A stretch of 64,000 nucleotides of DNA, taken from assembly GCA_002840245.1 (NCBI GenBank), contig PHAA01000011.1, positions 62,001-126,000 on the forward strand, written 5' to 3'. The stretch's first letter is position 1. Each line of letters begins with the position of its first letter. Positions 26,860-37,390 of the stretch are shown here, piece after piece. Source of the DNA: Firmicutes bacterium HGW-Firmicutes-15. Its GTDB lineage: Bacteria; Bacillota; Syntrophomonadia; Syntrophomonadales; Syntrophomonadaceae. A program made the translations under genes and the position numbers. Below the pieces are notes generated by a model, which was not told the origin of the DNA, did no database searches, and worked only from the letters and a program-made list of their open reading frames with translations.

Positions 26860-29800
26860 ATGAAATACATATATAAGAAAAGCTGGCAGCATTTTCTATC
26901 CTTGCTGCTATGTTTGTGCTTATTTTTACAAATATCTATATATCCTGTCCTAGCCAATGACCGATCTGCTGACATTATTGGCTCTAGCCCGTTGCTGGTT
27001 CCCAATTTATTAACCCCCTCCGGCCTGAGCGGCAAGGGGCAGATCGTTGGTATTGCTGATAGTGGTCTGGATAAGGGCAGCATGACCGATATTCATCCCG
27101 ACCTGCAAAGTGACCCAGGAACAATGCCCAAGGTAGTTATGCTAAAATCATATACTGATCGTGAGCTGCCTGATGACCCTAACGGACATGGTACCTTCAT
27201 GGCTGCCACTATTGCTGGCAGCGGCAAGGCTTCCCAGGGTCAATACCAGGGTATCGCTCCAGGAGCCAGTCTATATTTTCAGGCTTTATTGGATAAAGTC
27301 AACAATCTGAAAGTACCGGAGCGGTTGGAAGACCTTTTTCGACCAGCTTACTCGGCTGGAGTAAGAATTCATGTAGATGGTTGGGGTGGAGGTAGTAACG
27401 CTTATAGCGCCAGCTCAGTCCAGATTGATGATTTTGTCTATAAATACCAGGATTTTATGCCGGTTTTTGGGGCAGGTAACAGCGGCCCGGGCAGTGGCAC
27501 CCTGACCTCCGAGGCTAACAGCAAAAATGCTCTTACGGTAGGATCCAGCCAGGTACCCCGCCCCGCATTTGGGCCAGAAGCCCGTTTTGCTGACCAGAGT
27601 GCAGAATCTTCCAGCCGGGGACCGACAGCGGACGGTAGGATAAAACCCGAAATCTTGGCTCCTGGATCAGCTTTAATTTCTGCCAACTCCAGTTTGATCG
27701 AAGGAAACTTTGCGGCAAATTCTTTTTATAACCGCATGGGGGGGAGCAGCATGGCTGCAGCAGTAACTGGCGGAGCTCTAGCTCTGCTGCGGGAGCAGTT
27801 GAAAACCGATAAAAATATGCCCGACCCTTCATCTGCTTTGCTCAAGGCCTTATTGATTAATGGAGCTCGTTCCCAGACAGGTGATCCTACCCAAGAGGGC
27901 TTTGGTATTCTGGACTTGGCGGGAACAGTTCTGGCATTACAGGAGGGAACTTTTAAAATAAGCGATGAAAAGACAGGACTCAAAGCAGAAGAGATCAGGG
28001 AATATAAGTTGCAGGTAAATGATCCGTCGCTTCCGATAAAAATAACGCTGGCCTGGGTAGATCCTCCCGGTACACCGGGGGCAGCTTCAGCCCTGGTAAA
28101 TAATCTAGACCTTATCGTGCAGGAGCCCGGGGGAAAAAGCTATTACGGCAATGATTTTTCCGGCCAGGGACGTGCTGATTATAAAAATAATGTGGAACAG
28201 GTGTCTATTCCAGTATCTAAAACGGGCGAGTATATCATTAAGGTTAAGGCTACTAGCATTGGCCGGGCAGGGAGTATGCAGAATTTTGCCCTGGTATACG
28301 GTCAGCCACTGAAAAGCCAAGTAATCACTGAGATTAATAAGAATGAACTGAACTTATTGGACGGTACGAAGGTCAATCTGGCAGAACTTAAGTTGCATCA
28401 GGTCGTGGATGGCAGTCTAGTGAATTCAACCGCTGGCATTCAAGTGGGCAGCGATATTTACCTGAGTGCGGGCGTTGCCTATATCTTCGGGCGTACATGG
28501 AAAACTGGAGGAATACAGGCCTTACCCACCAGCGAAGGAGATCTGCTGTTGGAAATGAATACTAAGGTAAGAGAAGGAGGCTATTATCTGGCTCCCCAGG
28601 CTGTTGCTGCAGGTGCTGGCATCAGCGTGAATGGCCTACCGGTAGCTAGTATTACAGATATTCCTTCTGGTGCGGAGTTGAAGGCCACCATAAACCCGGC
28701 TCTGCAAACACTGTGGAAACTAGAGGCAGTCAACCAGGAAACAAGTGGATTCATCGAGCAAGTGAATACTGAGGCAAAAGAAGTCAAACTTGTTCATGAC
28801 CCGCATATTTATAAGCTAGCTGCCTGGGCAGCTATATCCTACCGTGATAAACTGCTGGACTGTACAGTTCAAGATACCCCTTACGGAACAGCAGAACAAA
28901 ATGATTTAGACAAACTAATGCCAGGAATGAAAGTGACCATGCAGGTCTCACCGAAAACCCAAGTAGTACAATCCCTGTTGCTGGAAAGACCTATGGTAAT
29001 AGGCCGAGTGGAATCGGTCGATATTGCGGAGGAGAAGATCGTGCTGGATTCGGGGAAAACCTACCAGATTTTCCCTGGGGCCAGCTTTTACCGAGATGAA
29101 GAGCTGGTTAAACTAGAAGATATTAAAAGCGGGGATCGGATTGTGGCCCTACTGATGCCGGACAGCAGCAGCATCATGCAACTAAGGGCATTCAGTTATG
29201 TAAGTTATGGGCGAGTTGTATATACCAGTCCTAAGCAAAAAAGCCTTTATCTTATTGATTCTAATAATAGTGCCCATAACTTTGCCTTGAATAAGCAGAC
29301 TGAGGTGTTTGGGTGGGGGATACCACTGGAATTTACTTCTATTCTTCCGGGAAGCTGGGTGAGGGTTATTGCCGATCCGACTGGAAAAGAAGCTTGGCGT
29401 ATAGATCTGGCTGAAATCGGAGAGGCGGAAGTAAAGATACTTTCCTCGGTCAACCCTGATAAAAAGATACTTAGTATGACAGATGGGTCAAAATATACAT
29501 ACAGCAGTTCCACCCGCATTAGCAAGGGTGGCTACAGTATAAATGCCTTAGATATAATGCCGGGCGAGAAAGTGAACCTCACAACCCTCTTGTCGCATTC
29601 ACCCTGGCCGCAGGTCTTAGCTGGGGTTGAGGTGGAATTAATCCCGCAGATAAAGGTGCCGGATACGGAACTTACAGCTCGCTCTTTAAATGGGGTTTTG
29701 ATTATTCAAGGGAATACGACGGCGGATAGGTTATACCTGTACCGCCAAGACGGCAGCACCGAGCGTATTACGGTTGTTGATGGGCGGGTAAGCCGCATAT

Positions 29801-30444
29801 ATCGGTTGCTGGATAATGAGACCGAGTTACGATTGGTGATATTGGATACACGCAGCGGCGGGATGAAAGCCAGTGACCTGAAAATTAGCGTATATCAACC
29901 CCAGCCAGCTCAAAATAGCTTTAATGACATAAGCGGTCATTGGGCGGAAAATTACATTAAAGACCTGGCCAGACGTAACTTTGTAAACGGCTATGGAGAT
30001 GGCAGCTACCGTCCTGATCAGACCCTGAGCCGGGCGGAATTAGTATCAATAATTGCAAGTTTGCATGACCTCACTTTGACCGTAATGGGCGAAAAACCTA
30101 ATTTTATCGATTACCAGGATATTCCCTGGTGGGCGCTGGAAGCGGTTCTCGCCGCTAAGGAGCATGGCTTGATCAGCGGATATGCAGATGGGAGTTTCCA
30201 GCCTGCCCGAGCGGTAACCCGCAGTGAAATGGCGGTTATTCTTTCCCGCCTGGCAGGTGAAACTAAGGCGGTGACGTCAGCTGAATTGCCATACCAGGAT
30301 AGTGAGCAGATACCTTCCTGGGCTAGAGACGCTTTTGTTCAGTTATATGAACGAGGGCTTTTGACCATATTCCCAGGTGAATTATTGGAACCGAATCGCC
30401 CCGTAACCAGAGCTGAAGCCGCCGCGTTACTTGACAAGATATAG
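26860..30444 (+). CDS. SLH-anchored subtilisin-like serine protease
   Basis: A 1194-residue surface protease. A signal peptide (1-33) is followed by an S8 subtilase domain (about 55-360) with the triad Asp67 (IVGIADSGLD), His110 (NGHGTFMAATIAG) and Ser297 (GGSSMAAAVTGG), and Asn207 as the oxyanion residue (FGAGNSGPGS). A beta-rich domain follows (about 375-490), then a long region of repeated beta modules (VESVDIAEEKIVLDSGKTY, VKILSSVNPDKKILSMTDGS). Three SLH motifs close the protein (about 1025-1190: DISGHWAENYIKDLARRNFV, the module with SGYADGSFQPARAVTRSEMA, and one ending NRPVTRAEAAALL). SLH domains bind pyruvylated wall polymer, which CsaB makes. Its end overlaps the convergent acyltransferase by 18 bases. 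Confidence 0.94.
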   Translation: MKYIYKKSWQHFLSLLLCLCLFLQISIYPVLANDRSADIIGSSPLLVPNLLTPSGLSGKGQIVGIADSGLDKGSMTDIHPDLQSDPGTMPKVVMLKSYTDRELPDDPNGHGTFMAATIAGSGKASQGQYQGIAPGASLYFQALLDKVNNLKVPERLEDLFRPAYSAGVRIHVDGWGGGSNAYSASSVQIDDFVYKYQDFMPVFGAGNSGPGSGTLTSEANSKNALTVGSSQVPRPAFGPEARFADQSAESSSRGPTADGRIKPEILAPGSALISANSSLIEGNFAANSFYNRMGGSSMAAAVTGGALALLREQLKTDKNMPDPSSALLKALLINGARSQTGDPTQEGFGILDLAGTVLALQEGTFKISDEKTGLKAEEIREYKLQVNDPSLPIKITLAWVDPPGTPGAASALVNNLDLIVQEPGGKSYYGNDFSGQGRADYKNNVEQVSIPVSKTGEYIIKVKATSIGRAGSMQNFALVYGQPLKSQVITEINKNELNLLDGTKVNLAELKLHQVVDGSLVNSTAGIQVGSDIYLSAGVAYIFGRTWKTGGIQALPTSEGDLLLEMNTKVREGGYYLAPQAVAAGAGISVNGLPVASITDIPSGAELKATINPALQTLWKLEAVNQETSGFIEQVNTEAKEVKLVHDPHIYKLAAWAAISYRDKLLDCTVQDTPYGTAEQNDLDKLMPGMKVTMQVSPKTQVVQSLLLERPMVIGRVESVDIAEEKIVLDSGKTYQIFPGASFYRDEELVKLEDIKSGDRIVALLMPDSSSIMQLRAFSYVSYGRVVYTSPKQKSLYLIDSNNSAHNFALNKQTEVFGWGIPLEFTSILPGSWVRVIADPTGKEAWRIDLAEIGEAEVKILSSVNPDKKILSMTDGSKYTYSSSTRISKGGYSINALDIMPGEKVNLTTLLSHSPWPQVLAGVEVELIPQIKVPDTELTARSLNGVLIIQGNTTADRLYLYRQDGSTERITVVDGRVSRIYRLLDNETELRLVILDTRSGGMKASDLKISVYQPQPAQNSFNDISGHWAENYIKDLARRNFVNGYGDGSYRPDQTLSRAELVSIIASLHDLTLTVMGEKPNFIDYQDIPWWALEAVLAAKEHGLISGYADGSFQPARAVTRSEMAVILSRLAGETKAVTSAELPYQDSEQIPSWARDAFVQLYERGLLTIFPGELLEPNRPVTRAEAAALLDKI

Positions 30445-31566: not shown

Positions 31567-32577
31567 TTATTTTTCAAGCCACAGTACTATGGTTTCCCGC
31601 TCAGCCTTTTGCTCCCAATCCTGCAGTTCATCTTCCAGGGTTACTATCCGCTGATCCAGTTGAGCCTTCTGGCTGGCATCCTGTAAGGTTGCGCGCTGGG
31701 TAACCAGTGACTGGTACTGGGTCAGGGTTTCCGCATAACGGGTAGAAATGTCTTGTTTATCAACCTCCTGATCAATTACCGTACCCAAACCGCCCAGTCT
31801 ATTTATTAAGTTGGTCGAAGATGCTTTCATGACCGTAATCTTAAGGACTGTATAACTGCCATTTTCATTTACCTGCACACCCAGGCTCTGAGTTTCAGCC
31901 TGCATATCACCAGCTATTTGCAGAACCTTCTCCTGAGCTAGTGCAGAATCGCCTACTCTGACTTTCAGCAGGGTGGTTTTAATAGATCTTTCCCTATTTA
32001 AAAAGACATAAGCAGAACGAACGTTACTAGCTGCCACTACTGGAGATTCTACAGTAGTGGTAGTATTATCTTTATTTGCTGCAATGGGTGGTTCCGCTTT
32101 AGGCTGTACTGTTGATAAATTATCGGTAGTATTTACGACTCCTGGGGTGATATTATCAGCTGGATATTTATTAGAAATTCCGGAGGATTGAACCGTATCA
32201 ACTACCGGAGTCTTTTCTGCAAGTTGAACCATGGGGCTGGAATTCATAGTCACTGCACTAAAAATCAGTAAGAGCGCAGCAGCTGCACCGGCCACTACCT
32301 GCCGCCAGCTTGTGTTAAACCAACGGGATTTCTTAATAGGCGTAACAATTCTTTCCTCATTAATACGCAGCATGACTGCATCCTTAAATCCTGCAGGCGC
32401 AGGCATGAGAACTGCTCCCATCTGCTTCATGGCAGAGGAAAGCTGGACTAGGTCCTCATATTCCCGCTGGCATTCTGCACACGCAGCTATGTGAGACCTA
32501 ACTTCTCCGGTTTCGCCGGGAGTTAGTTCATCATCCAGAAAAGGAGATATAAGTTGTTCAATTCTCATACAGTCCAT
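31567..32577 (-). CDS. Zinc-finger anti-sigma factor with DUF4349-like outer domain
   Basis: A membrane protein of about 336 residues. The N-terminal cytoplasmic domain has the anti-sigma zinc-finger pattern HIAACAECQREYE (His-x3-Cys-x2-Cys), then one membrane helix (VVAGAAAALLLIFSAVTM, near residue 100), a Ser/Thr/Pro-rich linker, and an extracytoplasmic domain with a coiled coil (LTQYQSLVTQRATLQDASQK onward) ending IVLWLEK, as in DUF4349-type proteins. It should hold the adjacent ECF sigma factor at the membrane and release it on an envelope signal. ATG 32577 is taken as start; a GTG nine bases further upstream is also possible. It follows the sigma gene directly on the reverse strand. Confidence 0.85.
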   Translation of the reverse strand: MDCMRIEQLISPFLDDELTPGETGEVRSHIAACAECQREYEDLVQLSSAMKQMGAVLMPAPAGFKDAVMLRINEERIVTPIKKSRWFNTSWRQVVAGAAAALLLIFSAVTMNSSPMVQLAEKTPVVDTVQSSGISNKYPADNITPGVVNTTDNLSTVQPKAEPPIAANKDNTTTTVESPVVAASNVRSAYVFLNRERSIKTTLLKVRVGDSALAQEKVLQIAGDMQAETQSLGVQVNENGSYTVLKITVMKASSTNLINRLGGLGTVIDQEVDKQDISTRYAETLTQYQSLVTQRATLQDASQKAQLDQRIVTLEDELQDWEQKAERETIVLWLEK

Positions 32578-32590
32578 GCTTATCACACTT

Positions 32591-33157
32591 TCACAGTTGT
32601 TTTTCCAGTTCCTTTTTCAGAGCCTTCCTCCCCCGGTTTATCCGGGATTTGACCGTTCCCAGAGAACAGTCCAGCATAGCAGCTATTTCATCATAATTGT
32701 AACCTTCAATTTCCCTTAGTATCAGGACAATTCGAAACTCAGGCAGCAGACGGTTAAGAGCAGTTCCTACCATAGCATTAAATTCACTGCGCTCCACCTT
32801 ATCCAGAGGACTCTCTTCGCTGGCAGCCAGCTCGCGACTAACTTCGCCTTCGCGAACAGGTAAGGGCTCATCCAGTGAAAATGTTACCACCTTCTTATTC
32901 CGGCGGCAGAAATTAATCCACTGATTAACTGCGATTCGGTGCAGCCAAGTTCCAAAGTCAGCATCGTTACGAAATGAACGAATACCTTTAAATCCTTGAA
33001 CGAAAACATCCTGGGCTAAATCCTGGGCGTCTTCAGGGTTCCCGGCCAGATAGTGGCAATGGGAATAAACCCTGTCCTGGTAGATAAGCACCAGTTCCCC
33101 GAAAGCATCCAGGTCATCCCGCTGGGCTTTTTCAATCAGGTCTTTAACAGTTGTCAA
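32591..33157 (-). CDS. ECF-type RNA polymerase sigma factor (SigW-like)
   Basis: A 188-residue extracytoplasmic-function sigma factor. Region 2 spans about residues 20-90 (HYLAGNPEDAQDLAQDVFVQ and FGTWLHRIAVNQWINFCRR), region 4 about 130-185 (LLPEFRIVLILREIEGYNYDEIAAML then GTVKSRINRGRKALKK). TTG start with AGGGAG nine bases upstream. The anti-sigma gene follows. A promoter motif upstream (33201-33233, reverse strand) is matched by one before the divergent S-layer-like gene, which indicates autoregulation and a shared regulon. Confidence 0.94.
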   Translation of the reverse strand: MTTVKDLIEKAQRDDLDAFGELVLIYQDRVYSHCHYLAGNPEDAQDLAQDVFVQGFKGIRSFRNDADFGTWLHRIAVNQWINFCRRNKKVVTFSLDEPLPVREGEVSRELAASEESPLDKVERSEFNAMVGTALNRLLPEFRIVLILREIEGYNYDEIAAMLDCSLGTVKSRINRGRKALKKELEKQL

Positions 33158-33182
33158 ACAAGTACACTCCCTGAATAACCGG

Positions 33183-33249
33183 GTAAATTTACCTAGTTAA
33201 CTATTAGACAACGAGCCGCGCTAAAAAGTTCCCGGCCAAGTAAATTTAC
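33183..33249. promoter_or_regulatory. Paired GTAAATTTAC palindromes around the sigma promoter
   Basis: Perfect ten-base palindromes GTAAATTTAC occur at 33183-33192 and 33240-33249, one on each side of the ECF promoter. They could be operator half-sites for another regulator; no candidate protein is identified. Confidence 0.4.
33201..33233 (-). promoter_or_regulatory. ECF promoter of the sigma/anti-sigma operon
   Basis: On the reverse strand GGGAACTTTTT (33223-33233), 13 bases, then GTCTAATAG (33201-33209), about 45 bases before the sigma start codon. The GGAAC -35 and GTC -10 core are typical of ECF promoters. Confidence 0.8.
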
Positions 33250-33413
33250 GATTATGTATATATTTGCACAATTCATTTTAACATGCTCAGGCAGGAAGAA
33301 CAATTTCCTAATATTGTCCACGTGCTTAATTAGCTTAACCTTTTTCTTCCTTAACATAGCTGCGAGATAATTTAACGCACTATTCAGAGAATAAAAACCT
33401 TTTTTGCCTGACC

Positions 33414-33446
33414 GGGAACTTTTTGGTTATATTGTGCGTCTAACAG
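33414..33446 (+). promoter_or_regulatory. ECF promoter of the S-layer-like gene
   Basis: GGGAACTTTTT (33414-33424), 13 bases, then GTCTAACAG (33438-33446). The -35 is identical to that of the divergent sigma operon, the -10 differs by one base and the spacing is the same. Transcription from here leaves a leader of roughly 210 bases. Confidence 0.8.
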
Positions 33447-33449
33447 TAC

Positions 33450-33666
33450 AGTCAGCCAAGGGATTCCATTTCAGGCAGTAGCCGCCTTGGCTCACAAACC
33501 AGCCGGAACAAGCATTACATAATAACCGGCTTAAAAAGGAGGGGAGTGGAGAGAAGTATCGTTGGTATCTATCGCTAGATAGATGATCACCTCTCAAGTT
33601 TAGGGCTAAAGCCCTGATTATCTAAAAGAAATTAATATTGAAATTATAAAAGGAGGAAAATACACA
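33450..33666 (+). other. Structured 5' leader of the S-layer-like gene
   Basis: The 509-base gap between the sigma gene and the S-layer-like gene holds the two ECF promoters and this leader, and no other gene. The leader has successive hairpins: AGCCAAGG with CCTTGGCT (about 33454-33492), AGCCGG with CCGGCT (about 33502-33534), ATCTATC with GATAGAT (about 33568-33583) and AGGGCT with AGCCCT (about 33602-33616). A strong AAAGGAGGAAAA ribosome site ends it. Stable leaders are common on abundant surface-protein mRNAs; it matches no riboswitch I know. Confidence 0.5.
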
Positions 33667-36063
33667 GTGATAAAAGCAAGAAGTAAAAAAATATCATTAT
33701 TACTAGTTCTTATGATGCTGGCAACTATGTTTGTTGGTATTGGAACAGTAAGTGCGGCTTCCACTATTACTTGCAATAATCCATTGCAGGTTGGAACCGA
33801 TGGCAACAGAACCCTGGGAACAGTAAGAGTCGATGTTGATATGACTCAATTAAATAATGGTGATGAAATTACTTTCCGTCTACCCGCAGACTTTAAGTGG
33901 TTTACAAAACAAGCCGCCACTGACTTCAGTGGTGCTGGTAACGCAGTTAATGCTGATCAAATCCTTCAGGCTGGTGGTGCTCCCAAAGTAGCCACCCAGA
34001 CAGTCTTAGAGGCTGCTGTAGTTGGTACAGGAGTAGCTGTAGGAGACGACTTCATAGTACTGGACTTCCCAGTACCTGACAACGGTCTATCTCCAATTCT
34101 GACCGCGGCAAATAATCCGCTGTCTATAACAGTAATAAGTGACAGAGAATTCAAATTGACCTATGATGCTACCGTTGCAGATACCACTGAAGCCAATGGT
34201 TATTTTTACATGAAGCTCCTCAGCGCTTATGTTCCATCAGGAGCTAGCACTGAAGTACAGCTTTTTGTTGAAAAACAGCCTAGTTCTGGTTTCCCAGCAG
34301 TATCCAGTGTAACCGTTGCTACAACATCAGCGGGCGATTCCACTGCCACCATTGACAGCTTAAAATCAATAACTGGAAATGGTACCCTTGATGTTATCCG
34401 GATTAAAGAAAACCGCGCAGCAGCGATGGACGCATGTAACCTCACTGTTAACAATAGTTATCAAACTATTACCGTTAAGCTTCCTACCGGAATGGAATGG
34501 AATGCTGCTACTACTGTGACCGGTGATTGGGGTTTAAGTGCTTATACTTTCCCAGCCTTCGATACGACCTTTGCTAATCTTGCAGCAGGTGCAACTTCAG
34601 TTGCATATGGTTATGATGCTACAGACAAACAAAAATTGTTGATTTCCGTAACTGACGCAACCGCTACCGCAGGTATCTTAAAAATTACTCCGGTAATTGA
34701 CATCAGTGAAACAGATGCCAAGGTAGGCGATATCACTGTAACCTTTGGCGGCAAAGAAACTGTCACCAATGGCACACTGGTAATCGGACAATATGTTGAC
34801 TTTGGTGTAGTTGTTGAAGCTGGAACTGTTAAGACAGTTAAAGCTGGTTCAAATGATTCTGAAGCTGGATATTTCTTTGTTAAAGAGAATGGTCCTGGCA
34901 GTCTGCTGAACGGCCGCTCACTTACATTGACTTTATCTGGCGATGCAAAATGGGATGCCACTCAACCAGTAGTTTCTTATGAAAAAGGTGATGCTACCCT
35001 AGGAGCATGGGCAACAGTTGGAACGGATAACCGTACCATCAAGGCTTTAGTAACTAGTGGTACAACTACTACTACAATTAAGTTCAAGACTCCAAAAGTT
35101 GTAATAGCTCCGGATGCCGTTGCCGGCGACCTGAATGTTGAAGTAGGCGGTACCGCTGGTGCTGCAGGAACCATTAAGATTGCTGACATAGTACCCCGTG
35201 TAACCGGAACTATTAGCTCTTCCAGCGACGTTCGCATAGGCCTACAGAATCAGTTGCTTGGCGATATTCTGATTAAAGAAGGTGCGAAAGAAGCTTTACG
35301 CAAGGCTAATTTCCTAGTGAAATTACCTGAAGGTATGTCCTTTTCGGCAGTTCCTACAGTGGAAGTTACTGAAGGTGACATAAGTCTTGATACAGCCGCC
35401 ATCAAACTTGTTTCAGACACTAACACAAATGACAGCGTTCTGATTACTGTTAAATCTACTTCTTCTGCTGCAAGCACGATAAAACTCAGTGCAGTTAAGA
35501 TTAATGTAAACCGTGTTGTTCCTGAAGGACCATTTAAGATTGAACTCAAATCTGACGGAGTTGCTGGTGCTGCTTGTGCATTATTTACTGCTGGTTCAGT
35601 TGCAGCCAACTACTGGCCTAATACAGTAAAAGCTGTAAGCATTAGTGGTGGCGAAGTAGTAACTCCTGCTCCCGGCGAAGTAACTAATTCTTGTGCCTTT
35701 GTAGTTGGCGCAGCCACATATACAGTTAATGGCAACACTGTAGATGCATTTGCAGCTTCCTATATCAAAGATAGCCGCACCTATCTGGCTATTCGCGATA
35801 TCGCTAATGCAGTTGGAATCGACCAGGCTAATGTTATCTGGGATGGATCAAAGAATACGGTTACCCTTATGAAGGGCGACAAAGTTGTTCAAATGACCAT
35901 TGCTAGCAAAACCTTACTGATTAACGGTGCTCCAGTTACTATGGATGTAGCTCCGGAAATTGGTCCTGGTAACCGCACCATGTTACCAGCCGCATTTGTT
36001 GCTATGTCATTTGGCGCAACTGCTAGCTTTGATGCAGTTACCAACACAGTAACTATTAAATAG
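33667..36063 (+). CDS. Large secreted S-layer-like protein
   Basis: A 798-residue secreted protein with GTG start behind AAAGGAGG. A signal peptide (1-31, ending VSAAS) is followed by four beta-rich repeats of about 140-170 residues, each with an LPxxxxW/F-type strand (ITFRLPADFKWFT, ITVKLPTGMEWNA, LTLTLSGDAKWDA, FLVKLPEGMSFSA). The C-terminal 120 residues form a copper-amine-oxidase-like domain (DSRTYLAIRDIANAVGI and NRTMLPAAFVAMSFGATA). Codon use is shifted to GCT, GTA and ACT relative to neighbours, suggesting high expression. There are no SLH motifs. The abundance signs and ECF promoter fit a major surface-layer protein; I cannot name a family. Confidence 0.75.
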   Translation: MIKARSKKISLLLVLMMLATMFVGIGTVSAASTITCNNPLQVGTDGNRTLGTVRVDVDMTQLNNGDEITFRLPADFKWFTKQAATDFSGAGNAVNADQILQAGGAPKVATQTVLEAAVVGTGVAVGDDFIVLDFPVPDNGLSPILTAANNPLSITVISDREFKLTYDATVADTTEANGYFYMKLLSAYVPSGASTEVQLFVEKQPSSGFPAVSSVTVATTSAGDSTATIDSLKSITGNGTLDVIRIKENRAAAMDACNLTVNNSYQTITVKLPTGMEWNAATTVTGDWGLSAYTFPAFDTTFANLAAGATSVAYGYDATDKQKLLISVTDATATAGILKITPVIDISETDAKVGDITVTFGGKETVTNGTLVIGQYVDFGVVVEAGTVKTVKAGSNDSEAGYFFVKENGPGSLLNGRSLTLTLSGDAKWDATQPVVSYEKGDATLGAWATVGTDNRTIKALVTSGTTTTTIKFKTPKVVIAPDAVAGDLNVEVGGTAGAAGTIKIADIVPRVTGTISSSSDVRIGLQNQLLGDILIKEGAKEALRKANFLVKLPEGMSFSAVPTVEVTEGDISLDTAAIKLVSDTNTNDSVLITVKSTSSAASTIKLSAVKINVNRVVPEGPFKIELKSDGVAGAACALFTAGSVAANYWPNTVKAVSISGGEVVTPAPGEVTNSCAFVVGAATYTVNGNTVDAFAASYIKDSRTYLAIRDIANAVGIDQANVIWDGSKNTVTLMKGDKVVQMTIASKTLLINGAPVTMDVAPEIGPGNRTMLPAAFVAMSFGATASFDAVTNTVTIK

Positions 36064-36078
36064 TAAAGTCTAATAAAA

Positions 36079-36110
36079 AGAGTCCGGTTTTATAGCCGGG
36101 CTCTTTTTTT
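36079..36110 (+). terminator. Terminator after the S-layer-like gene
   Basis: AGAGTCCGG pairs with CCGGGCTCT (one G-T pair) over a short loop, followed by seven T. Confidence 0.92.
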
Positions 36111-36217: not shown

Positions 36218-36246
36218 TTGACCAGCCAGTCGGTTAGCTATATAAT
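36218..36246 (+). promoter_or_regulatory. Promoter with TetR-type operator before the TolC-like gene
   Basis: TTGACC (36218-36223), a 17-base spacer and TATAAT (36241-36246) form a near-consensus promoter. Within it TGACCAGCCAGTCGGT (36219-36234) matches 12 of 16 positions of TGACCGGCGGGTCGGC in front of the RND pump operon (51356-51371). Binding here would block polymerase. Confidence 0.75.
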
Positions 36247-36292: not shown

Positions 36293-37390
36293 ATGCGTAA
36301 ATGGATATCTGCAATTATAGTAAGCCTTCTTATTATAGCTACAACAAGCCAAGGGATCATGGCTTCCGAATCACAGGGGGATCAGACAGTAGGCAAAACC
36401 TTAACTTTTGAGCAGGCAGCAGACTTGGCACTGAAAAACAGTACTACCATTAAGAGTGCTGACTATAACATTGAAAGTGGGGAACTAGTACGTAACGCGT
36501 CGGCTGATAATGCAAAATGTATACCTTCCGATGGTACCAATTCCACGGCTTCAAGGGCCTATACCAGTCTAGTTTCAGCAGATATATCTTGGAATATGTC
36601 TAAAAAAACCAGAACCCTGGAAGGTGACAAGCTTGAATTATCTGTATATAAAGAATATATAAATATGATTAAAGCCATAGAGAACCTAAATTATGCACAG
36701 GTGACATTGAAGAATACCCAGTGGCAGTGGAATGTTGCTCAAATAAATTATCAAGTGGGAATTACCAGTCAGACGCAAAAGAATGCCAGTGACACCGAGC
36801 TTAAGGCAGCTCAGAACTCATTGAGATTAGCAGAAATCGCATTAGATACTGAATACCAGACATTTAATAAACTTGTAGGCTTAAATCCGACCGAAAGACC
36901 AGTCCTGGCTGAAAAACCGAATTATAGCTTATTGAAGATTGATGATCTCCAAAGCTCAGTAACCCGCACTTTGGAACAAAGCCCCTCTGTGTGGAAGGTT
37001 GATCAAAGCGTTATCCAGGCCCAGTTAGCAATAGAGCTTTATGACTGGAGTAGTTCGTCTACTTCTCCTTATAAGACTAAACAAATTGCTCTTACCCAAG
37101 CCGAGCTAAGTGCAAGTGAAACTAAGGAACAAGTAGCTCAGGCAGTAAGAGACTTGTATAATTCAATTTGTAATCAGGAAGAGACCTATAACACCCAGCA
37201 GGAAGCCATAAAGCTAGCTGAAGATACTCTAAGGGTTAAACGAGTAATGTTTGAAATAGGGATGGCAACCAAAACCGATGTTCAGACTGCGGAGTTAGCG
37301 TTGGAAAAAGCTAAGAAAGATCTGAACGCAACTATCTACCAGCACGAATACCTGAAACTAACCTTTGCCAAGCCGTGGGCAGCAAGCTAA
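36293..37390 (+). CDS. TolC-family efflux-like protein
   Basis: A 365-residue secreted protein with a signal peptide (1-24) and two OEP-type helical repeats: the first with LTFEQAADLALKNSTTIKSA, the second with VTRTLEQSPSVWKVDQSV. Long coiled helices include NYQVGITSQTQKNASDTELKAAQ and the C-terminal FEIGMATKTDVQTAELALEKAKKDL, the classic TolC-family G-x-xT-xx-DV-xA pattern. In diderms TolC forms the outer-membrane channel; in Firmicutes lacking an outer membrane the role is unclear. It is shorter than E. coli TolC and seems to lack the beta-barrel strands. A shared operator links it to the MFP/RND operon 15 kb away. Confidence 0.85.
   Translation: MRKWISAIIVSLLIIATTSQGIMASESQGDQTVGKTLTFEQAADLALKNSTTIKSADYNIESGELVRNASADNAKCIPSDGTNSTASRAYTSLVSADISWNMSKKTRTLEGDKLELSVYKEYINMIKAIENLNYAQVTLKNTQWQWNVAQINYQVGITSQTQKNASDTELKAAQNSLRLAEIALDTEYQTFNKLVGLNPTERPVLAEKPNYSLLKIDDLQSSVTRTLEQSPSVWKVDQSVIQAQLAIELYDWSSSSTSPYKTKQIALTQAELSASETKEQVAQAVRDLYNSICNQEETYNTQQEAIKLAEDTLRVKRVMFEIGMATKTDVQTAELALEKAKKDLNATIYQHEYLKLTFAKPWAAS

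Follow-up and report, generated by a model that had tools for sequence, protein, structure and literature searches.

The DNA analysed here is a stretch of 64,000 nucleotides (nt) from Firmicutes bacterium HGW-Firmicutes-15 (assembly GCA_002840245.1, contig PHAA01000011.1, positions 62,001 to 126,000 of the forward strand), referred to as the window. It carries an operon encoding an extracytoplasmic function (ECF) sigma factor, sigma1, and its anti-sigma factor, together with a divergent gene for a large S-layer-like protein (SLP). Both are preceded by the same promoter-like motif and, judged from sequence, appear to form a real, conserved and dedicated ECF-SLP circuit, composed of the following features.

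31567-32586, minus strand: anti-sigma factor gene; zf-HC2 domain, one hydrophobic segment and DUF4349 outside (domains from Pfam, segment from the translation)
32591-33157, minus strand: sigma1 gene, 188 amino acids, TTG start (Pfam, NCBIfam)
33201-33233, minus strand: putative ECF promoter of the sigma/anti-sigma operon; -35 GGGAACTTTTT at 33233-33223, -10 GTCTAA at 33209-33204
33393-33405, plus strand: A-tract/T-tract 5' of the SLP -35, possible UP element
33414-33446, plus strand: putative ECF promoter of the SLP gene; -35 GGGAACTTTTT at 33414-33424, -10 GTCTAA at 33438-33443
33667-36063, plus strand: gene of the secreted SLP, 798 amino acids, GTG start; Shine-Dalgarno (SD) sequence AAGGAGG at 33650-33656; C-terminal PF07833

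Sigma1 contains only regions 2 and 4 (Sigma70_r2, E 9e-18; Sigma70_r4_2, E 7e-16; Pfam), the composition of an ECF (group 4) factor, and scores 104.7 bits against the NCBIfam sigma70-ECF model TIGR02937 (cut-off 42.9). Among the named ECF groups of NCBIfam (SigW, RpoE, SigM and others) no equivalog cut-off is reached, the best score being 138.7 bits for SigW versus the 209 required. Searching this genome with sigma1 returns a single protein at E 1e-30 or better, and a close paralogue is therefore not present in it. The anti-sigma factor conforms to the ZAS type, with a zf-HC2 gene directly 3' of the sigma gene (37 bits; cut-off 22.2) and a membrane segment visible in the translation; DUF4349 also scores above its Pfam cut-off. 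A literature search, in which subscription journals were thinly covered, found no description of DUF4349 in anti-sigma factors.

The SLP has a pI of 4.8, is rich in Ala, Thr and Val and contains no His. PF07833 is its sole Pfam match, with neither an SLH nor a CWB2 wall anchor, and single-sequence AlphaFold2 gave no usable fold (pLDDT 36). Its signal peptide, size, composition and tandem paralogues, along with the PF07833 proteins of the Desulfotomaculum reducens surfaceome, suggest an S-layer-like protein. It may also be very abundant; its codon usage ranks 6 of 47 by an index that separates ribosomal genes poorly and so is not decisive on abundance.

An earlier note on this DNA had called these three genes and placed two promoter-like sites with a common -35 and spacing before them; the Pfam domains bear out the gene calls, and exact pattern matching recovers both sites. 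The sigma-side copy reads GGGAACTTTTT-agcgcggctcgtt-GTCTAATAG on the minus strand (33201-33233) and the SLP-side copy GGGAACTTTTT-ggttatattgtgc-GTCTAACAG on the plus strand (33414-33446), sharing an identical -35 and an identical 13-nt spacing, with -10 regions GTCTAATAG and GTCTAACAG, respectively. GGAACTT is the -35 of E. coli sigma-E, as cited in PMC3397946. Dinucleotide shuffles of the window yield zero matches, even at 3 mismatches. The genome-wide search for the bipartite motif that the note had proposed, run on 3,465,716 bases in 84 contigs, recovers only the sigma-side and SLP-side sites: exact GGGAACTTTTT-N13-GTCTAAYAG occurs twice in the whole 3.47 Mb, both times at the sigma/SLP locus, and the looser GGAACTT-N15..17-GTCTAA falls in the same two places only. 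Allowing 3 mismatches adds 6 sites genome-wide, versus 23 for the reversed control pattern, and further regulon members are therefore not visible in this genome.

Of the first 60 relatives, 15 have a sigma1 orthologue (49-72% identity), and in these the locus runs subtilase, anti-sigma, sigma, two divergent promoters, SLP and TolC-like gene, with the anti-sigma gene directly 3' of the sigma gene wherever contigs are long enough. The comparison set comprises 54 family genomes, 17 with sigma1 and 37 in which no sigma1 was found, and counts across relatives are uncorrected for relatedness. Alignment of 19 sigma-side and 22 SLP-side promoters, including those of the window, reveals hexamers near 2 bits per position around a spacer of 0-0.4 bits at most positions; such fixed hexamers with an uninformative spacer argue for a constrained site rather than recent descent. 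The pattern GGGAACTT-N16-GTCTAA occurs at 40 sites across the 54 genomes, versus 3 for the reversed control. Eleven of these lie at the junction of the genes for a paralogous sigma factor, sigma2, and its anti-sigma2, and one lies within an unrelated open reading frame (ORF; genome G028). The remaining 28 all precede either sigma1 (14) or an SLP gene (14), a site near a contig end in G003 being tallied with SLP on account of the SLP leader element downstream of it. The strict motif is found in 15/17 genomes with sigma1 and 0/37 without. It also precedes SLP genes unlinked to sigma, on other contigs in G020, G021 and G022 and at the second SLP copy of G068, and in G058 the SLP gene, with promoter GGGAACTTTTC, lies ~20 kb from sigma. 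In a Desulfotomaculaceae metagenome-assembled fragment (L070), two ORFs of 519 and 167 amino acids occupy 824-2890 between the two intact promoters; apart from this fragment, the contig search for sigma1 orthologues yielded mainly distant paralogues. Four congeners without detected sigma1, including one with a 100% complete assembly (G001), match the SLP in its C-terminal region only.

The motif thus stands before sigma and SLP in nearly all sigma1 relatives; its absence from these positions is what the earlier note had said would count against its proposal. Within the GTCTAAyAG box that the note described, GTCTAA is kept in relatives and the trailing YAG is not. The note's reading of a sigma factor that controls itself and the SLP gains support from the motif before both genes, even unlinked ones, while S-layer identity, abundance and envelope gating are parts that we infer. 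Tandem sigma1-type promoters, 176 bp apart, precede the SLP gene in G027 and G069 (L079, 7979/8155; L160, 8796/8972).

The two promoters differ in their upstream sequence. A run of at least four A at -25 to -8 accompanies 17/19 SLP promoters but only 3/17 sigma promoters, and the A-tract of the window may act as an UP element; AT content 5' of the -35 shows no difference between the two promoter classes, which differ in A-runs alone. Two copies of the palindrome GTAAATTTAC (33183-33192 and 33240-33249) flank the sigma promoter. They are not called as an operator, their sequence not being kept in relatives; a small hairpin at the position of the first copy is often kept.

The SLP transcript is predicted to carry a leader of ~216 nt before the start codon (~180-260 nt in relatives), versus ~45 nt for sigma. 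The leader comprises the following plus-strand elements, in order, with the true SD after them.

33455-33491, plus strand: 5' hairpin of the SLP mRNA, GCCAAGG...CCTTGGC (predicted fold, mean z -1.6 over 20 leaders)
33501-33623, plus strand: conserved structured leader element, containing the six elements below
33501-33531, plus strand: P1 hairpin
33536-33546, plus strand: SD-like AAGGAGGGGAG, with AAGGAGG at 33536-33542
33567-33584, plus strand: P2 hairpin
33585-33592, plus strand: first repeat, GATCACCT (GATYACCT)
33602-33615, plus strand: P3 hairpin
33616-33623, plus strand: second repeat, GATTATCT (GATYACCT)

Across 16 leaders, the hairpins keep their places with changing sequence, at z of 8.6 (P1), 8.0 (P2) and 9.5 (P3) versus shuffled regions. 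A GATC/GATY helix pairing the two repeats covers 97% of cells and includes G-C to G-U replacements. Covariation is weak on the first alignment and clearer after realignment to a covariance model, a step that leans towards structure and leaves the shuffle test as the more independent one; the variable hairpins were missed by MAFFT with RNAalifold when applied to complete leaders. The covariance model, R1, has one match in this genome (E 5e-12); in the family it matches SLP leaders, most of which were in its training set, plus one sequence at E 0.05. The best Rfam matches to window positions 33150-33720 fall far under gathering scores (E 0.45 or worse), and the leader RNA is apparently undescribed so far. 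GATYACCT lies within 350 nt of 33/42 SLP genes versus 1/176 other genes, and is present also in sigma1-less genomes. A leader peptide from AAGGAGGGGAGTG, a 10-codon ORF in the window, was rejected, the leaders of relatives having no start codon there.

The most probable role of the leader is to stabilise the SLP mRNA or to tune it. In most leaders, the SD-like AAGGAGG is far from any start codon and starts no gene, resembling the STAB-SD of Bacillus thuringiensis cry3A, an SD-like sequence that lies far 5' of the genuine start and initiates no translation (PMC4113751). Unlike that of cry3A, the SD-like sequence here is flanked by conserved hairpins and the GATYACCT repeats, ~85 nt into the leader. 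The main rival role is a translational switch, in which AAGGAGG and the anti-SD-like GATYACCT would engage in competing pairings, either mutually or with the true SD. Predicted pairing of the SD-like sequence with the stretch near the first GATYACCT in most species fits such a switch, as does the retention of GATYACCT family-wide, beyond promoter type. Pairing of the true SD, however, varies from species to species (mean unpaired probability 0.1-0.72), and a simple mRNA stabiliser like STAB-SD (PMC4113751) needs fewer assumptions. We favour a stabiliser acting in that manner and keep the switch as a tentative alternative that deserves serious weight.

The promoter pair, with its conservation and restriction to sigma and SLP genes, and the conserved leader structure follow directly from sequence and comparison; co-occurrence and autoregulatory position point to sigma1 as the factor that reads both promoters. 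We hold with high confidence that the locus encodes a dedicated envelope circuit, in which sigma1 drives its own operon and the SLP gene, with a leader-tuned SLP mRNA. Membrane anti-sigma factors with zf-HC2 hold their sigma until the outer domain is triggered, often by proteolysis. In the proposed circuit, the membrane-spanning zinc-finger anti-sigma factor (31567-32586) would hold the ECF sigma factor (32591-33157) and probably respond to the envelope. Freed sigma would transcribe from two GGGAACTTTTT-N13-GTCTAA promoters, the first being that of its own operon, giving positive autoregulation, and the second that of the divergent gene for the large, wall-associated SLP. A 5' A-tract and the ~216-nt leader would set the SLP promoter apart from the sigma promoter, and the leader, with its 5' hairpin, three more hairpins, SD-like AAGGAGG and GATYACCT repeats, would stabilise or tune the SLP mRNA. 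With a surface protein as the sole visible output, the signal may concern the wall or surface layer itself.

Several observations weigh against this circuit. GTCTAA-type SLP promoters occur in G044, a 91% complete assembly with no sigma1 detected; G022, G020 and G058 keep both promoters without adjacency; both promoters are degenerate in G042; and a weak sigma-A-like sequence, TTGCCT-18-TATATT (9/12), overlaps the SLP promoter of the window. This last overlap makes a second SLP promoter possible, and the SLP gene could be transcribed mainly from it, the ECF promoter adding output under stress only. S-layer genes are usually expressed constitutively, which counts for such housekeeping transcription. 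Its match of just 9/12 is one of several expected by chance in the region, and lies partly in the spacer, which relatives do not conserve, and we consider this explanation unlikely.

Other ECF promoters bear on the identity of the sigma factor at the SLP gene. The SLP genes of sigma1-less genomes are preceded, at a comparable distance, by an ECF-like promoter of another type: GGAAC[AC]-N-CGTCATAA with variants, of the general form GGAAC-N18-GTC (GGAACA..CGTCATAA is seen at L165-L174 and L187-L199). Across all the loci examined, GGAAC-N17..19-GTC lies within 350 nt of 38/42 SLP genes (40/44 including two truncated SLPs), compared with 0/174 other genes, 0/27 TolC-like genes and 0/12 subtilase genes. 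The ECF-like promoters of the sigma1-less SLP genes therefore make ECF control of SLPs look family-wide. The sigma1 paralogue sigma2 (~40% identity) has a GGAACTT -35 within its last codons (ERELLP*), followed by the CGTC of a -10 in the gap before anti-sigma2 at 14/15 loci; 11 read CGTCTAA, and the other -10s include CGTCAAA. The junction motif lies at the 3' end of the sigma2 gene in L021-L029, L031-L034 and L164. Chance occurrence within coding sequence was rejected for the 11 family matches, given their recurrent position at the sigma2 end and anti-sigma2 gap, and the motif is likely a separate promoter that spans the stop codon of sigma2 and serves anti-sigma2 only.

Both window promoters could accordingly be real ECF promoters with the SLP site read mainly by another ECF factor, such as sigma2, and with sigma1 adjacency secondary. 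The ECF-like promoters of sigma1-less SLP genes indicate that other ECF factors can drive SLPs, and G044 pairs GTCTAA-type SLP promoters with no detected sigma1. Against this, the search at E 1e-30 or better finds no close sigma1 paralogue in this genome, and the SLP promoter matches sigma1's own exactly in hexamers and spacing. The -10 type also tracks sigma1 presence, the GTCTAA form occurring at 19/20 SLP genes with sigma1 versus 2/22 without, both exceptions being in G044. We judge control by another ECF factor improbable. That the repeat is instead a shared operator, chance or recently duplicated sequence, as two near-identical copies within 250 bp might suggest, is very hard to credit, given that in more than 40 promoters from relatives the spacers and flanks are wholly different around fixed hexamers, and that form and spacing fit ECF -35/-10 architecture.

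The dedicated sigma1-SLP circuit may extend to two dedicated layers setting surface-protein output, a proposal for which we find the balance even. One layer would be a nearly one-target ECF/anti-sigma loop reporting on the envelope. The other would be a new structured leader-RNA family that bears mimics of the SD (AAGGAGG) and of the 3' end of 16S rRNA (GATCACCTC, identical to that end) and tunes stability or translation of the SLP mRNA; related lineages would keep the leader theme with another ECF promoter.

Four further features adjoin the circuit.

26860-30444: subtilase with SLH domains, convergent with the anti-sigma gene, an acyltransferase gene lying between
36080-36110, plus strand: probable intrinsic terminator behind SLP, GAGTCCGG-TTTTATAG-CCGGGCTC-TTTTTTT, read by eye and not listed by a mechanical scan
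36218-36246: good sigma-A-like promoter of the TolC-like gene, match 11/12
36293-37390, plus strand: TolC-like gene 3' of SLP

The TolC-like gene, with no ECF promoter, its own sigma-A-like promoter and a probable terminator in front, is predicted to lie outside the ECF regulon. A TolC-family gene stands behind SLP in almost all genomes of this Gram-positive group (L079, L081, L084, L172, L173), in which an outer membrane is unexpected, and it is often accompanied by genes that by eye resemble those for an RND pump and an adaptor. The SLH subtilase adjoins the sigma operon in most sigma1 loci (L076, L077, L078, L158, L163 and others), without a sigma1 promoter. As a conserved surface protease, it could target either the anti-sigma factor or the SLP, in signalling or SLP processing.

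In domain content, operon order, adjacent putative autoregulatory promoter and GGAACTT-type -35, the pair resembles those of E. coli RpoE and B. subtilis SigW. Unlike these, it reaches no equivalog cut-off and has a visible regulon consisting of the sigma operon and one surface-protein gene; its anti-sigma factor also carries DUF4349 on the outside, an arrangement described in no paper found. Tt-RpoE1/Tt-TolB of Thermoanaerobacter tengcongensis likewise combines an ECF sigma factor with a cognate anti-sigma factor downstream, in a thermophilic anaerobe of Bacillota; in the part of that paper covered here, Tt-RpoE1 recognises its own promoter in vitro, with a start ~39 nt 5' of the gene, and no S-layer target is reported (PMC3397946). 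Its -35 TGTTAC and -10 TCTATA differ from GGGAACTTTTT and GTCTAA here (PMC3397946). The SLP is large, secreted, acidic and Ala/Thr/Val-rich, with tandem paralogues and a very long leader, like Gram-positive S-layer proteins; unlike those anchored by SLH or CWB2, it has PF07833 only. On the cell surface of D. reducens, a likely relative, PF07833-domain proteins and the TolC-family Dred_3141 were detected; that study did not address regulation, and the part of it covered here draws no sigma-factor link (PMC4137172). No paper that places a Bacillota S-layer gene under an ECF factor emerged from the literature search, in which subscription journals were thinly covered, and such negatives are therefore weak evidence of novelty.

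ECF sigma factors that regulate themselves usually govern a stress response. All the targets visible here are the sigma operon and a single structural surface protein, an arrangement conserved in a class of Gram-positive anaerobes from the environment. A promoter switch that occurred naturally at a single target gene (GTCTAA versus GTCATAA) makes the locus suited to studying the evolution of ECF specificity, and a structured leader sits on what may be among the most abundant mRNAs of the cell. If the circuit holds true, surface-layer production in these organisms would be regulated and envelope-sensed rather than constitutive.

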